Origin: Bryobacteraceae bacterium
Lineage (GTDB): Bacteria > Acidobacteriota > Terriglobia > Bryobacterales > Bryobacteraceae
DNA length: 60,288 nucleotides
Direction of reading: 5' to 3'
Assembly: GCA_019748195.1 (NCBI GenBank)
Contig: JAIEPW010000006.1
Location: forward strand, 1 to 60,288
A program made the translations under genes and the position numbers. Under the pieces are notes generated by a model, which had not been told where the DNA came from, did not search any database, and saw only the letters and a program-made list of their open reading frames with translations. The stretch's first letter is position 1, and each line of letters begins with the position of its first letter. This document shows positions 36,396 to 51,433 of the stretch, piece after piece.

Positions 36396-37484
36396 ATGCG
36401 CTGGCTGGTGCTGCTCCTCCCCTGTCTCGCCCCCGCCCAATTCCCAGCCGGCCTCCTCGGCGAGTGGCGAGCCCAAGTTTCCGGCGTCACCATGACCCTC
36501 CGCTTTGAACCCGGCGGACGCTGCTCCGTCGACAACGATCGCGGCGTCTGCAAGCTCCAGGACGGCTGGCTCACCTTCCGCTCCGACGATGGCGAGCTCG
36601 AGCGCTACGCCTATGACCTCGCACCCGGCCGCCTCACCCTCAGCGGCGGCGACCTCGATGAGCCCATCACCTTCCTGCCCGCCCAAGCGTCACCGCAAAC
36701 CCCGCACGCCCGCCGCTTCCACCAGCCCAAGTGGGGGCTCAGCTTCGCCCCGCCTCCCAACTGGAATGCCGCCGAACGCGACGGCCTCCTCCTGCTCGGC
36801 TCCCCCACCGAACCCGGCCTCATCGTGATCCGCTTCCAGCGCCGCACCGGCGAACCCCAACTCCGCGCCGGCTACGCCGCGGGACTCGAAGAAGCCGGCA
36901 TGAAGCTCGTCGCCGCCGCGCCCATCCAGACCACCCAGGCCGGCGCCTCCCCAGCCCTCGCCGGCGAACTCGCCGGCGCCTCCGCCGAAGGCCCCGTCAC
37001 CGCCCGCGTCATCGCCGTCCTCTCCCCCTTCGGCGATGCCGCCGTCATCCTCGCCATCACCACCAACGCCAACTACGCCAGGCTGAAGGCTCACGCCGAC
37101 GCCCTTGCCGCAACCGTGATGTTCTCCGAGCCCGCGAAATTCGCCGCGCGCGACGCCATCGCCGGCCAGTACATGTACTACTACCAGGGCGCCAGCGGCG
37201 GCGCCTACTCGCGGCAGGAAGTGCTGAATCTCTGTGCCAACGGAACCTTCTCCCGCGGCGGCGAAACCCATGGTTCCGGTTCCGCCGGCGCCGCCGTGAT
37301 TTCCAGCGCGAATAGCGGCCACTGGCTCGCCGACGGCGACGACCACCAGGGCGCCATCACGCTGATCTTCCGAAACGGCGACCGCGACGAGCTCGCCTAC
37401 CGCAAATCCGGCCCCGACATCGTCCTCAACGGCAAAAAGTACGGTCGCTTCGGCGACGGCGCCTGCTCCCAGCGCTCCCCATGA
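36396..37484 (+). CDS. secreted protein of unknown function
   Basis: A 362-residue protein with signal peptide MRWLVLLLPCLAPA. Residues about 20-90 (LLGEWRA...MTLRFEPGGRCSVDNDRG) resemble a small lipocalin/beta-barrel-type domain with GxW near the start; 110-240 look like a PsbP/YhcN-like domain (WGLSFAPPPNWNA, GLIVIRFQRR), and the C-terminus repeats a beta pattern with GQYMYYYQG and FSRGGETHG, ending with a Cys. Related proteins are common in soil bacteria; function unknown. After it, about 1.5 kb carries no gene. Confidence 0.7.
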   Translation: MRWLVLLLPCLAPAQFPAGLLGEWRAQVSGVTMTLRFEPGGRCSVDNDRGVCKLQDGWLTFRSDDGELERYAYDLAPGRLTLSGGDLDEPITFLPAQASPQTPHARRFHQPKWGLSFAPPPNWNAAERDGLLLLGSPTEPGLIVIRFQRRTGEPQLRAGYAAGLEEAGMKLVAAAPIQTTQAGASPALAGELAGASAEGPVTARVIAVLSPFGDAAVILAITTNANYARLKAHADALAATVMFSEPAKFAARDAIAGQYMYYYQGASGGAYSRQEVLNLCANGTFSRGGETHGSGSAGAAVISSANSGHWLADGDDHQGAITLIFRNGDRDELAYRKSGPDIVLNGKKYGRFGDGACSQRSP

Positions 37485-37586
37485 CATCGCCTTCGCAGAC
37501 TCACAACAGCAAAGTGGGAAAACCGCCTTTCTAGGCCATCCGGGCCCTCCAGTCCCCGCGTCCGGGCGAACGCCAGGCGAAGGGTG

Positions 37587-38010
37587 CCAGTTCCACCTGC
37601 TCCATATACCCGGACTAAGGAGGTATACCCCATCCGGCATACCCCGCCGCCCAATTCCAACAACTTGCAACGACTCCAGCCTCACAACTCCAGCGCTTGG
37701 TGATCTTCTTGGGCTAAGGGTCCGCAAGCCCCCGGAACACCCGGAACTGGCGCCGCCCCCCGAGTGCCTGTTCCGCCTGCTCCACCGCGAGCGGCGCCAG
37801 TTCCACCTGCCCCCAGCGACGGTCCTCCGGAACACGTGGAACTGGCACTCCTGCCTCCCCATCACTCCGGACACCCCGCCGACCCCCGCACCCGTTCCGC
37901 CTGCCCCAAATGCCGAGCCTGGTGCTGACCCAGAATCTCCGGCCCAGCCCCCACCGTGAACCGCGGAAACGAAACGAACGGGTTCCGGAACCGGACCCCG
38001 GTCCACGTCA
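37587..38010. repeat. left copy of a diverged duplicated non-coding block
   Basis: Segments recur in the same order at 38629-38905. Examples are TCCACCTGCTCC at about 37592 and 38634, GGCATACC-CGCCG at about 37637 and 38675, GAGTGCCTGTTCC at 37761 and 38780, CCCCAAATGCCGA at 37905 and 38801, and CCCACCGTGAACCGC at 37949 and 38830. Identity is patchy, so the duplication is old. Long reading frames cross the block on both strands, but they follow GC bias rather than any family. No gene is recognised. Confidence 0.6.
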
Positions 38011-38046
38011 AACGCGCTCAAGCTCCCAGGCGACCTGATCACTTCA

Positions 38047-38126
38047 CGCTCCAACGAAGGGAGTTGGCGCACATACTCGTGCAGCTTGTAGTGCCGCCTT
38101 CAGGCGGCAGGGGCCTTCAGGCCCCG
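38047..38126 (+). repeat. 80-bp triple-hairpin repeat, unit A
   Basis: Contains three stems: CCAAC/GTTGG around GAAGGGA (38051-38066), GCCGCC/GGCGGC around TTCA (38093-38108), and GGGGCC/GGCCCC around TTCA (38110-38125). It is nearly the same as units B and C; where the second stem changes (GCCGCC to ACCGCC), its partner changes to match (GGCGGC to GGCGGT), which points to selection or transfer at the structure level. Confidence 0.8.
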
Positions 38127-38379
38127 TTAACCCCACCCCCGGCGACCCAAGCGTCCGACAACACACCAGTCTGCCGGCCACGCCCCCCGCGCGGCCGTCC
38201 GAAACCGCCGGCTCCGCCATCAGACGTTCGGCCCAGTCCGGCAGCGATGCGCTCCGTTGCGACACCTGCCCAGTTGAGGCCACCGGCATACCAACCCCGC
38301 GGAAGACCCGTCAAGAAAATAGGGAGCCGCGATGCGTAAGCGAGCGGCACACGATCCTGCTGCAAGACGCAGGCTGTCG

Positions 38380-38404
38380 AACCGCCTTCAGGGGTAGCCC
38401 TGTT
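38380..38404 (+). repeat. truncated triple-hairpin unit
   Basis: AACCGCCTTCAGG followed by GGTAG and CCC, a collapsed form of the second and third hairpins, lies directly before unit B. It has lost the inner bases of the third stem, so this is a decayed first member of the tandem. Confidence 0.5.
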
Positions 38405-38508
38405 GAAGATAGCGAACACTCCCACATGCGCTCCAACGAAGGGAGTTGGCGCACATACTCGCGCAGCTTGTAGAACCGCCTTCAGGCGGTAGGGGCCTTC
38501 AGGCCCCG
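38405..38508 (+). repeat. 104-bp tandem repeat, unit B (with 80-bp triple-hairpin core)
   Basis: The core is 38429-38508. The 24 bp before it (GAAGATAGCGAACAC plus flanks) is repeated before unit C with few changes, so B and C form a true tandem of period 104. Stems: CCAAC/GTTGG, ACCGCC/GGCGGT, GGGGCC/GGCCCC. Confidence 0.8.
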
Positions 38509-38612
38509 TGGAAGATCGCAAACATTCCCATGCGCTCCAACGAAGGGAATTGGCGCACATACTCGTGCAGCTTGTAGAACCGCCTTCAGGCGGTAGGGGC
38601 CTTCAGGCCCCG
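38509..38612 (+). repeat. 104-bp tandem repeat, unit C
   Basis: The core is 38533-38612, exactly 104 bp after the core of unit B, differing at only a few positions (GGGAA for GGGAG, CGTGC for CGCGC). It ends at the same G after GGCCCC. Both full units keep all three stems. Confidence 0.8.
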
Positions 38613-38628
38613 ATTATGGCATCGGGGT

Positions 38629-38905
38629 GTCAGTCCACCTGCTCCAGATCACCCGATGAAGGAGGAACCCTTTCGGCATACCGCGCCGCGTCATTCCAGC
38701 AACTCGCGTGACTCCAGACTCACGACAGCGCAATCGGCCTTCTGGAGCGTCCGGAACACGCGGAACTGGCATTGCCTCCCGAGTGCCTGTTCCCCCTACC
38801 CCAAATGCCGACCCTGGTGCTGACTAGCCCCCACCGTGAACCGCAGAACCGGAACGAACGGGTTTCGGAATCGGACCCGGTTCGCGTCCAACGCGCTCGC
38901 CGGCA
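38629..38905. repeat. right copy of the diverged duplicated non-coding block
   Basis: Shorter partner of 37587-38010, lacking the about 140 bp that carries the second AGTTCCACCTGC set in the left block. The triple-hairpin units lie between the two copies. No gene is recognised between 37485 and 39053. Confidence 0.6.
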
Positions 38906-39053
38906 CTGGCGCTCCCCTCCCACACCACGCTCCCAGCGCACATACTCCCGCGCGGGCGCGACGCAAGACCCACTCCGCTGTCAAGACCCACTCCGCTGTA
39001 ACGTGTGAGAAGATCTACCGTGAAGCGTGAACGAAGCGCACAAGGCGGGCGAC

Positions 39054-39884
39054 ATGGCTGACGACGCGAGGATCGGGACACCCTGGCAGAATGACGAGCT
39101 CGACGCGATTGTAGCTGATTACTTCGACATGCTTGAGGCCGATCTTTCCGGCCAGCCGTACGTCAAGTTGAGGCACAGCCGGGCATTGATGACGAAGATC
39201 GGCAGGACGCACCGATCCATCGAGTTCAAACACCAGAACATTTCGGCCGTCCTCGACGAACTCGGCATGCCCTGGATCCCGGGCTACATTCCCAAACGGA
39301 ATTACCAGAACGCGATTTTCGACGCCATCGACCGTTACCTGACGCAACACCCAGCGATTCTTGATGTGGTCCCGGCGTCTCAAACGACTGCGCCACCGTC
39401 TACGGTCTTCGTTGAGGTGCCGATCCTCTCCGCTCCCGCAGAGCCGATTCCGGACCGCTTGCGCAGGCTTGTTCAGAAGTTTGATCCGGTAGAGCGTGAC
39501 TATCGCAACAGGTCGCTGGGCAGAGCTGGCGAGTCCTTTGTAGTTGATCTCGAACGGCGCCAGCTCTCCGAGGCCGACCGGACTGATCTGGCCGGAAAGG
39601 TTCGGTGGGTCGCCGCAGAAGACGGCGACGGCGCTGGCTACGATGTGCTGTCTTTCGACCGCAGCGGCTGCACGCGCCTTATCGAGGTGAAAACTACAAA
39701 CGGGTCCGCGCGGACGCCGTTCTACTTGAGCCGGAACGAGCTTGGACTTGCGGAGGAAAGGCCGACAGAATGGCGCATTTACCGCGTTCACCTGTTCGCC
39801 AAAGATCCGCACGTTTTCACGATTGCTCCGCCGTTGAAAGCCTCCGTGAACCTGCGCCCTGAAACGTGGCGCGTATTTTTCTAA
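39054..39884 (+). CDS. DUF3883-domain, restriction-endonuclease-like protein
   Basis: About 276 residues from ATG 39054 (AAGGCGGG upstream; GTG 39027 possible). The C-terminal half shows the DUF3883 pattern: GRAGESFVVDLERRQL, then GAGYDVLSFDRSG, RLIEVKTTNGS and PFYLSRNELGLA. The Asp, then Glu-x-Lys spacing is the PD-(D/E)xK nuclease layout. The N-terminal half (NDELDAIVADYFDML, LRHSRALMTKIGRTHRSIEFKHQNISAVL) is a helical domain often coupled to it. DUF3883 occurs in restriction and anti-phage proteins, so a DNA-cleaving defence role is plausible but not shown. No methylase is nearby. Confidence 0.85.
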   Translation: MADDARIGTPWQNDELDAIVADYFDMLEADLSGQPYVKLRHSRALMTKIGRTHRSIEFKHQNISAVLDELGMPWIPGYIPKRNYQNAIFDAIDRYLTQHPAILDVVPASQTTAPPSTVFVEVPILSAPAEPIPDRLRRLVQKFDPVERDYRNRSLGRAGESFVVDLERRQLSEADRTDLAGKVRWVAAEDGDGAGYDVLSFDRSGCTRLIEVKTTNGSARTPFYLSRNELGLAEERPTEWRIYRVHLFAKDPHVFTIAPPLKASVNLRPETWRVFF

Positions 39885-40043
39885 CGCATGAGCGGCCCGA
39901 CGCGCATGAGGAGAGGATCACGAAGGACCAAAGTTCGGCTGAAAGCAGTTGGGGTTGGCCGGCGCACTGGGGCGTCCGCTCAATTCCTGCTAAGGAACAG
40001 CACCGGACCAAGCACAGAGGTGGCCCCGCGCTTGGGCTGCAAG

Positions 40044-50360: not shown

Positions 50361-50383
50361 GGTGCCTGGTGGTGCCAGGCACC
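50361..50383 (+). repeat. REP palindrome, left of the RAYT gene
   Basis: Perfect 9-bp arms GGTGCCTGG/CCAGGCACC around TGGTG, followed by GATGTGGG. The TGGTG-CC-GGCACCGATGT part is shared, in the same orientation, with the right flank REP. It lies 45 bp after the RAYT stop codon. Confidence 0.8.
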
Positions 50384-50427
50384 GATGTGGGAGGTTGGAA
50401 CGCGATATCCGGCTTTTCTGCAGTAGC

Positions 50428-51141
50428 TTAGGCTGTGGAAAAAAGATCCGCAAAAAGTGACCCCAGTTGCTTCTGGGCCGCTTTTCGATCCGCGCGTTTG
50501 GGCCGTGGAAACAAGACGCCGAACCGCTCCTCCAGCTCCGCTACAAAGCGCGCGGAGCCGAGCGGGATGCCGTGGCGGGTGGCCTTGCGGATCGCGGCGA
50601 GCTCGCGGCGCGGCTGCTTCGCGCCCAGCGCGAGCCTCCAGTAGTCCAAATCAAAGCGGCTCTCAAATGTTTGCGTGTCCAGCCACGGCGGCGCCTTCTT
50701 CAATCCCAAATGCACCGCCGCCGTGGACCAGCGATACTCCTCGGCGCGCGCGGTGATGCGCGCCCGAACCGGGTTCAGCTCCACGTAGCGAAGCGCGCAG
50801 GCGAAGTGTTTTTCATCCAAAACACAGGCAAAATAGCGGTCTTTCCACAAATGCCCGCTTCGCCGCAGGCGGCTGTTGAGGAACTTCGCGTACTCGCCGG
50901 CGAGGCGCTCCATCATGTTCGAGAGAGCGTCTTCCTCGTCGGGAATCACGATGAGGTGGCTGTGGTTGGACATCAGGCACCAGGCGATGACGCGCACGTT
51001 GTGCTCCTCGGAATGGCGCGCGAGGAGGTTCAGGTAATGGAGACGATCGGCGTCGGTGAAGAAGGTGCGTTGTCCAAAGTTGCCGCGCTGGGTGACGTGG
51101 AGGGCGAGGCCGGGAGGTGCGAATCGGGGTCGGCGAGGCAT
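50428..51141 (-). CDS. REP-associated tyrosine transposase (RAYT), Y1/IS200-like
   Basis: A 237-residue single-domain Y1 transposase. The HUH motif is HSH in LMSNHSHLIVIP (His 60 and 62), and the likely nucleophile is the Tyr in ALRYVELNPVRA (Tyr 119). The flanking LWKDRYFACVL and N-terminal HVTQRGN are also typical. RAYTs act on REP hairpins; both sides of this gene carry REPs (45 bp after its stop and 143 bp before its start), and further copies occur at 35.6 kb and, decayed, at 24.5 kb. The basic tail (PKRADRKAAQKQ) may help bind DNA. It lacks insertion-sequence ends of the usual kind. Confidence 0.93.
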   Translation of the reverse strand: MPRRPRFAPPGLALHVTQRGNFGQRTFFTDADRLHYLNLLARHSEEHNVRVIAWCLMSNHSHLIVIPDEEDALSNMMERLAGEYAKFLNSRLRRSGHLWKDRYFACVLDEKHFACALRYVELNPVRARITARAEEYRWSTAAVHLGLKKAPPWLDTQTFESRFDLDYWRLALGAKQPRRELAAIRKATRHGIPLGSARFVAELEERFGVLFPRPKRADRKAAQKQLGSLFADLFSTA

Positions 51142-51283
51142 GTTGAAACAGTAGTGATGGGAGTGGGGAGAAGTTCTCGCGGAAAGTGGGGGGGGGAGGC
51201 GCGGGTGGGGGCGGTTTTTGGAGGGCCGAAAAATGGCTGCAAGGGGCTGAGGGGGTGAGGCTTAGCCTCGAAATCGCCGGCGG

Positions 51284-51312
51284 ATCGGCGCCAGGTGGTG
51301 CCTGGCACCGAT
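51284..51312 (+). repeat. REP palindrome, right of the RAYT gene
   Basis: Twelve-base arms 51284-51295 and 51301-51312 (11 of 12 pair) around TGGTG. It is 28/29 identical to the minus strand of 35648-35676. Confidence 0.85.
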
Positions 51313-51433
51313 GTTGGCGCGTGGCAGCGATCAGGTGAGATCATTCCGGAGACGGGGGGCGTCAGGAAGACCCGGTGGGCGTTGCCGGGTTGGGCATTCG
51401 CGGTGGTGCTCGAGTGATCTACTACTAGCACAG

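Follow-up and report, generated by a model that had tools for sequence, protein, structure and literature searches.

REPs (repetitive extragenic palindromes), REPtrons, clusters iterated in tandem and families that differ by compensated changes in their stems are already known (Di Nocera 2013, PMC3733652; PMC6006769; what is said here of these papers and of PMC8266576 refers to excerpts of them). Pairs in the published GTAG families arise from whole REPs (PMC3733652, PMC6006769). On the protein side, the roles of the W, Q, E and R residues of Escherichia coli TnpAREP in guide binding have been described (PMC6006769), and two of the three systems tested depended critically on positions in the loop (PMC8266576).

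Here we describe an acidobacterial REP in which two hairpins stand on one foot, together with the RAYT (REP-associated tyrosine transposase) gene that it borders. We put the probability at about three in four that these represent a REP/RAYT system with a twin-hairpin substrate, spread by its own RAYT and amplified locally in tandem.

Results

A repeated element of two hairpins

The window, by which we mean the whole 60,288-nucleotide stretch analysed (Bryobacteraceae bacterium, NCBI GenBank assembly GCA_019748195.1, contig JAIEPW010000006.1), carries a REP array between one ORF with no Pfam match (36396-37484) and another matching NOV_C (39027-39884). TRF recovered the tandem repetition that a sequence-only reading had noticed (Table 1), and self-BLAST matched 38368-38508 to 38462-38612. 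The 104-bp period is made up of one REP and a 65-bp spacer. Unit A of that reading (38047-38126) is indeed 95% identical to units B and C across 80-81 bp, and the collapsed copy that it placed near 38380 was read as a degenerate REP. An older local duplication (37582-38019 versus 38625-38898, 71-78% identity) has the REP array between its halves.

The REP element proper is 39 nt long and consists of GTAG, a stem of 6-7 bp with a TTCA loop and then a stem of 6 bp with a TTCA loop. Copies A, B and C all have the GTAG foot, with two hairpins to the one foot, unlike the one stem-loop of those published families whose description is known from the excerpts. As single-stranded DNA the two TTCA-loop stems reported earlier fold strongly in all three copies, and no shuffle equalled the real sequence among 200 dinucleotide shuffles of each. 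The stem of hairpin 1 reads GCCGCC/GGCGGC in A and ACCGCC/GGCGGT in B and C, a single compensated pair (G-C to A-T), whereas its seventh, outermost pair is T-A in A and a broken A-A in B and C; the matched stem changes claimed earlier therefore hold for the former pair and fail for the latter.

The sequence-only reading had drawn the unit too large, with CCAAC/GTTGG as a third stem in each copy. The stem stands ahead of copy A, but unit C reads CCAAC/ATTGG, which is uncompensated, and no stem of this form appears in the centroid fold of any of the three units. It is also private to the window locus: an 81-nt unit-A query gave 33 matches, 3 of them at the locus, and the other 30 start at a query position of at least 30 (18 of them at position 43), past the stem. 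Given that the CCAAC/GTTGG stem is absent from the other genomic copies, the element comprises two stems and not three. Stem variation without compensation, an observation that had been set to count against the earlier proposal, was found in this stem and in the one outermost pair of hairpin 1.

Table 1. Positions of the features discussed (window coordinates unless a contig is named; R1 is a covariance model, see text).
Feature	Position	Strand	Evidence and remarks
Twin-hairpin REP copy A	38088-38126	+	R1 65.5 bits, E 1.6e-13; DNA fold z -5.8
GTAG foot of copy A	38088-38091	+	followed by hairpin 1 (7 bp, TTCA loop) and hairpin 2 (6 bp, TTCA loop)
Twin-hairpin REP copy B	38470-38508	+	R1 62.2 bits; DNA fold z -4.3
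Twin-hairpin REP copy C	38574-38612	+	sequence identical to copy B; R1 62.2 bits; DNA fold z -4.3
Degenerate, collapsed REP copy at start of tandem array	about 38376-38403	+	sequence reading; within self-BLAST match
Head-to-tail tandem array	38397-38612	+	TRF, period 104 bp, 2.1 copies
Locus-private spacer copy ahead of copy A, with CCAAC/GTTGG stem	38047-38087	+	self-BLAST
Spacer between B and C, stem broken (CCAAC/ATTGG)	38509-38573	+	sequence
Second dispersed palindrome, GGGAG-CCGC...GCGG-CAnAC	38322-38352	+	8 genomic matches
IS200-like/TIRYT-like Y1 gene	50428-51141 (element 50361-51313)	-	Y1_Tnp match
RAYT gene (matched coding stretch)	C151:177696-178223	-	bordered by two inverted twin REPs
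REP copy beside the C151 RAYT	C151:177627-177665	-	R1 match
REP copy beside the C151 RAYT	C151:178273-178311	+	R1 match

Copies and arrays across the source genome

The genome-wide search that the sequence-only reading had suggested was carried out with R1, a covariance model built from 13 source-genome copies, and did find the element elsewhere: 62 matches at E<=0.01 are spread over 20 contigs, and 46 matches reach E<=1.2e-7; the total may be low, given that the initial pass scored 150 of 9697 candidates. In the 13 aligned copies the first three columns of the foot are invariant, and G4 is kept in 12. About half of the copies are near contig ends (32/62 within 1 kb, versus 5.3% expected by length; for four contigs the left end only), so assemblies are probably interrupted at such arrays, which would then be undercounted. 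Across 41 genomes, source included, R1 matched in 6, mostly weakly outside the source genome. The exact pattern of the window REP gave 0 matches in a collection of genome contigs in which the source genome is perhaps not included.

Six arrays were read, in C119, C114, C110, C112, C136 and C69, and in all of them the copies stand head to tail. Periods are 132-210 bp in C69 and 85-121 bp in the other five, and the spacers are locus-specific, except one common to C110 and C112. Inverted neighbouring copies occur at C151, C41, C65 and C15, with further ones of weak R1 match at C37 and C123. Arrays of a sister subtype, with TTTA loops, stem 1 GCCGCG/CGCGGC and the same spacer, were seen at L060 (C110:4731-5134) and L057 (C112:56007-56270); within the former, each full copy is preceded by a partial one. 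At the start of C110 (L044) and the end of C114 (L015), nearly the same gene end is followed by differently built REP arrays; the two may be variants from different strains or the outcome of a locus duplication.

The matches to the second palindrome of the window (<=3 mismatches) all have an R1 match at most 500 bp away, and a looser pattern also finds C153:59847, which has no listed REP copy within 500 bp. This palindrome perhaps belongs to a composite element, either as a partner end or as a REP of a second type.

The RAYT gene at C151 and the Y1 gene of the window

Ten Y1_Tnp matches were found in the source genome, and judged from the R1 matches above the element borders the C151 gene only. 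The RAYT-like gene inside the window, which had been suggested for a test of transfer, was rejected as the partner: its locus holds no twin element, the contig has no R1 match beyond the 38-kb array, and palindromic ends of another kind border it. Two more copies of this window element, on C126 and C152, are 98.8% and 97.9% identical to it over about 950 bp; the copies have similar palindromic ends on both sides with the common sequence GGCACCGAT, and the whole is probably a small element active recently.

At C151, both bordering REPs have their GTAG feet turned to the gene and lie at distances of 30 and 49 bp from its matched coding stretch, an arrangement that makes the locus a REPtron in the sense of a RAYT with inverted REPs at both borders in the same genome. 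The reading frame is open, with NHVH and YVERNP intact, and YVERNP fits the Y motif stated for RAYT subclasses (PMC6006769). In the alignment with 4er8, YVERNP falls on YIYINP, and the W, Q, D and R of the C151 protein fall on W94, Q95, E100 and R104 of E. coli TnpAREP (positions counted on the alignment). A profile of 17 RAYTs had 4er8 TnpArep as its best match (E 4.8e-10). For the fold comparison a clade relative, L113, stood in for the source genome's own protein; the AlphaFold model of L113 (mean pLDDT 88.6) likewise had 4er8 as its first match (E 3.6e-8, TM 0.60-0.63). The C151 protein scored 72.4 bits on the NCBIfam RAYT model NF047646, below the cut-off of 80, and a single-sequence PDB search with it gave 0 matches at E<=0.01.

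Alone among the 17 aligned RAYTs, the C151 protein has EYDD, not ESYD, beside the guide-binding residues, in an EYDD/CPR motif absent from the 16 others. This difference raised the suspicion that the catalytic tyrosine had been lost, which was abandoned when YVERNP turned out to be the Y motif in the alignment with 4er8; in E. coli TnpAREP, Tyr115 is catalytic. The protein also sits on a long branch (1.03), and because of this branch and of EYDD it may be degenerate.

The same features would suit a fossil REP family, in which the RAYT that spread the elements is defunct here and the arrays change by slippage and recombination only. A single clade RAYT was found in the genome, the REPs at its borders differ in hairpin 2 from the window copies and from the common types, and partial and collapsed REP copies are frequent. 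However, the catalytic and guide-binding motifs described above are intact in an open frame, and identical 39-nt copies stand on separate contigs (C119:38088, C69 and C153:173901), and we consider a fossil family unlikely.

Covariation and coupled hairpin tips

Pairing can be followed across genomes. Among 17 TTCA-type elements (8 from the source genome and 9 from G006, G009 and G015), 91% of cells pair and 11 of 13 pairs are changed on both sides, with a covariation of 0.626 versus 0.209 when shuffled and <=0.097 when slid, a result that is tilted towards pairing because the rows were hand-chosen and the structure was derived from the same rows. For the source-genome copies alone, 7/13 pairs are changed on both sides (covariation 0.338 versus 0.161). 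A MAFFT alignment of all loop types (A3) was misaligned in the stems and was left out of the pair counts. Moreover, the hairpin tips within one element are alike, with a mean loop score of 2.05 versus 0.00 permuted (0 of 5000; 20 distinct tips).

Covariation by itself does not separate RNA from folded single-stranded DNA. Covarying stems would equally fit an RNA or mRNA element (terminator, stabiliser or small RNA) selected as RNA, as had been suggested from the window, and REPs of other species reportedly lie mostly downstream of genes and are plausibly transcribed (PMC3733652). Yet an Rfam search of 37000-40000 gave 0 matches at E<=1; 37400-39100 contained no promoter-like site and a single terminator-like site, which lies at some distance from the array at 37444-37457; and selection as RNA leaves the inverted placement at both RAYT borders and the conserved GTRG foot unexplained. 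We therefore regard a structured RNA as quite improbable. The twin-hairpin REP may have a secondary use as RNA.

A second covariance model, R2, of the TTCA-loop type elements, matched in 11 of 40 genomes: 82 times in G006, 46 in G000, 41 in G009, 20 in G005, 10 in G015, 8 each in G017 and G019, 5 in G025, 4 in G021, and 2 each in G020 and G024. Three of these genomes, the drafts G005, G019 and G024, yielded no full-length clade RAYT, which speaks against a strict link. R2 gave no match in G001, G008, G011, G014 and G032, all with clade-type RAYT matches; most of the elements in these five genomes have other loops or feet than the TTCA training set of R2. Only 6 exact matches across the 41 genomes were obtained for the loop type of G001, G015 and G020, a family that is therefore small or variable. 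The REP pattern of G008 has 13 copies (<=3 mismatches) versus 0 for the reversed control, 4 of the 13 in tandem beside the RAYT gene with a period of 112-113 bp.

Twin and single hairpins at the RAYTs of relatives

RAYT matches were present in 19 of the 41 genomes searched, source included, some of these being distant Y1 proteins only. Counts from an earlier structural scan, which with 585 hits proved far too permissive, were discarded. A scanner for GT[AG]G twin hairpins, whose background is 0.0026 per kb in mononucleotide shuffles, was positive at 14 of 18 full-length or near-full-length RAYT loci. Control Y1 loci were positive in 2 of 21 cases, one being L084, a truncated clade member with twins; the 21 include one place twice (L037 = L097, C124) and the near-identical copies L034-L036. 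On the real 60-kb window the scanner picked up copy A plus 2 chance hits at the same threshold, below which the other two copies, B and C, fell. At the non-clade Y1 locus L087 (G005), a twin lies more than 300 bp from the gene.

A further 80 loci were taken from named GTDB genomes as the best 80 of 414, and the nearest among these best 80 belong to Bryobacterales/Bryobacteraceae, Candidatus Solibacter and other Acidobacteriota. The tree was built from 85 of 118 profile-matching loci, with at least 120 profile positions each, identical sequences entered once (L041 = L072) and L084 left out by length. It contains a clade of 28 RAYTs (support 95/89) that includes the source genome's protein and whose named members are all Acidobacteriota. 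A twin detected by the scanner lies no more than 300 bp from the gene for 24 of the 28 clade members versus 3 of the 57 other rows (Fisher p 5e-14, with rows that are not independent). Reading the four scanner-negative members by eye raises the former count to 27/28, a reading that was not blind and that compares with others judged mostly by scanner only: L094, L111 and L114 have twins, the last two with a GGAG foot, and L083 has hairpin 2 only. Feet in the clade are GTRG or GGAG (GTGG or GGAG in several relatives), and the stems differ among genera with compensation.

In the sister clade of six, also read by eye and not blind, a single hairpin stands on both sides of the gene in five, and none was found at L109. 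The foot of these single hairpins is GTRG, except in the left one of L079, where it is GTGA. Single-hairpin units were likewise read by eye at L110 and L120. On these sequences, one switch from the single to the twin hairpin is the simplest reading.

Two loci outside the clade may be added. At the outgroup locus L120, two GTAG single-hairpin units lie almost back to back, an arrangement that is a possible model for the origin of the twin form. Twin-hairpin-like GTAG elements with matching tips also lie by a distant RAYT outside Acidobacteriota, at L132 (Ardenticatenaceae), by chance or through an independent origin.

Discussion

At the level of sequence, the twin-hairpin REP has dispersed copies, head-to-tail arrays, inverted copies at the borders of the C151 RAYT and the same architecture at the RAYTs of one acidobacterial clade. 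Together with the compensated changes within and between genomes, these support the proposal, made from the window, that a mobile hairpin cassette is copied, or kept by selection, on the basis of its structure and that a RAYT takes part. By analogy, the RAYT would bind, cleave and mobilise the twin REPs. The element would fold wherever it becomes single-stranded, on the lagging-strand template or during repair; the cognate RAYT, a HUH tyrosine single-strand endonuclease, would recognise the foot and the hairpin tips, nick next to the element and move it to other sites. Since the two tips within an element covary, we infer that both hairpins would be read by the same protein surface, either by two RAYT protomers or successively. 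Arrays are best explained as local amplification, and the 104-bp array of the window would go back to one inserted REP that was multiplied together with flanking DNA, either through slippage or because the RAYT joined adjacent REPs. That the locus is instead an ordinary minisatellite, in which slippage duplicated a unit whose hairpins are incidental, is very improbable: the spacers are private to each array examined and the array sits between the halves of the older duplication, but slippage accounts for the array and not for the element, since the latter is dispersed over 20 contigs with unrelated spacers in the arrays read and borders a RAYT.

Starting from the preferred reading of a REP/RAYT system with a twin-hairpin substrate, we tentatively put forward a more detailed scheme, with the odds somewhat against it. 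A single switch in one acidobacterial, mostly Bryobacterales, RAYT lineage may have produced a twin REP of which both hairpins are now required. A single surface, acting as a dimer or in two steps, would read the tips and keep the loops locked together; RAYT and REP would have co-changed in each genus; and the head-to-tail units of roughly 85-120 bp would be copied or excised by the RAYT and not by slippage alone.

These findings bear on how RAYTs recognise REPs and on whether RAYTs move REPs. Given that the partners are twins in one clade and mostly single in the sister clade, the protein change and the role of the second hairpin can be tested with matched pairs, and loop swaps offer a check on the prediction that follows from the coupled loops. 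A one-foot twin-hairpin REP tied to one RAYT clade was found in none of the literature searched, which covered parts of openly available main texts, among them PMC2817692 and PMC3686654.

Among the described systems, the GTAG REP families and REPtrons (Di Nocera 2013, PMC3733652; PMC6006769) are similar in the GTAG foot, the GC-rich short-loop hairpin and the many copies, and also in clusters iterated with flanking DNA, a RAYT bordered by inverted copies and families that differ by compensated stem changes. The present element departs from them in its two same-orientation hairpins per foot with coupled tips, where the published families, in the excerpts, have one stem-loop per GTAG unit; the E. 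coli REP, too, is unlike the twin REP in being one imperfect palindrome with a bulge (PMC8266576). The basic unit of a REPIN or BIME is an inverted REP pair; in the source-genome arrays that were read, that of the window included, the head-to-tail arrangement predominates, and inverted neighbours occur at C151 and the other loci named above. The class 3 TnpA_Y1 repeats of Solibacter usitatus (about 600 copies; PMC6006769) share the acidobacterial host, the high copy number and the position at the borders of a Y1 gene, but have the foot CnGA, as excerpted, in place of GT[AG]G or GGAG. The TIRYT genes of Acidobacteria (PMC3733652) resemble the window Y1 gene, which is bordered by longer palindromic ends, and not the C151 RAYT, which is bordered by the twin-hairpin REP. 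Finally, the RAYTs of the clade resemble E. coli TnpAREP (4er8) in the HUH-Tyr single-strand nuclease fold, in the guide-binding W/Q/(E or D)/R and in the positions of the Y motif, and differ from it in about 30 extra residues before the match, which starts at clade position 67 versus residue 33 of 4er8.
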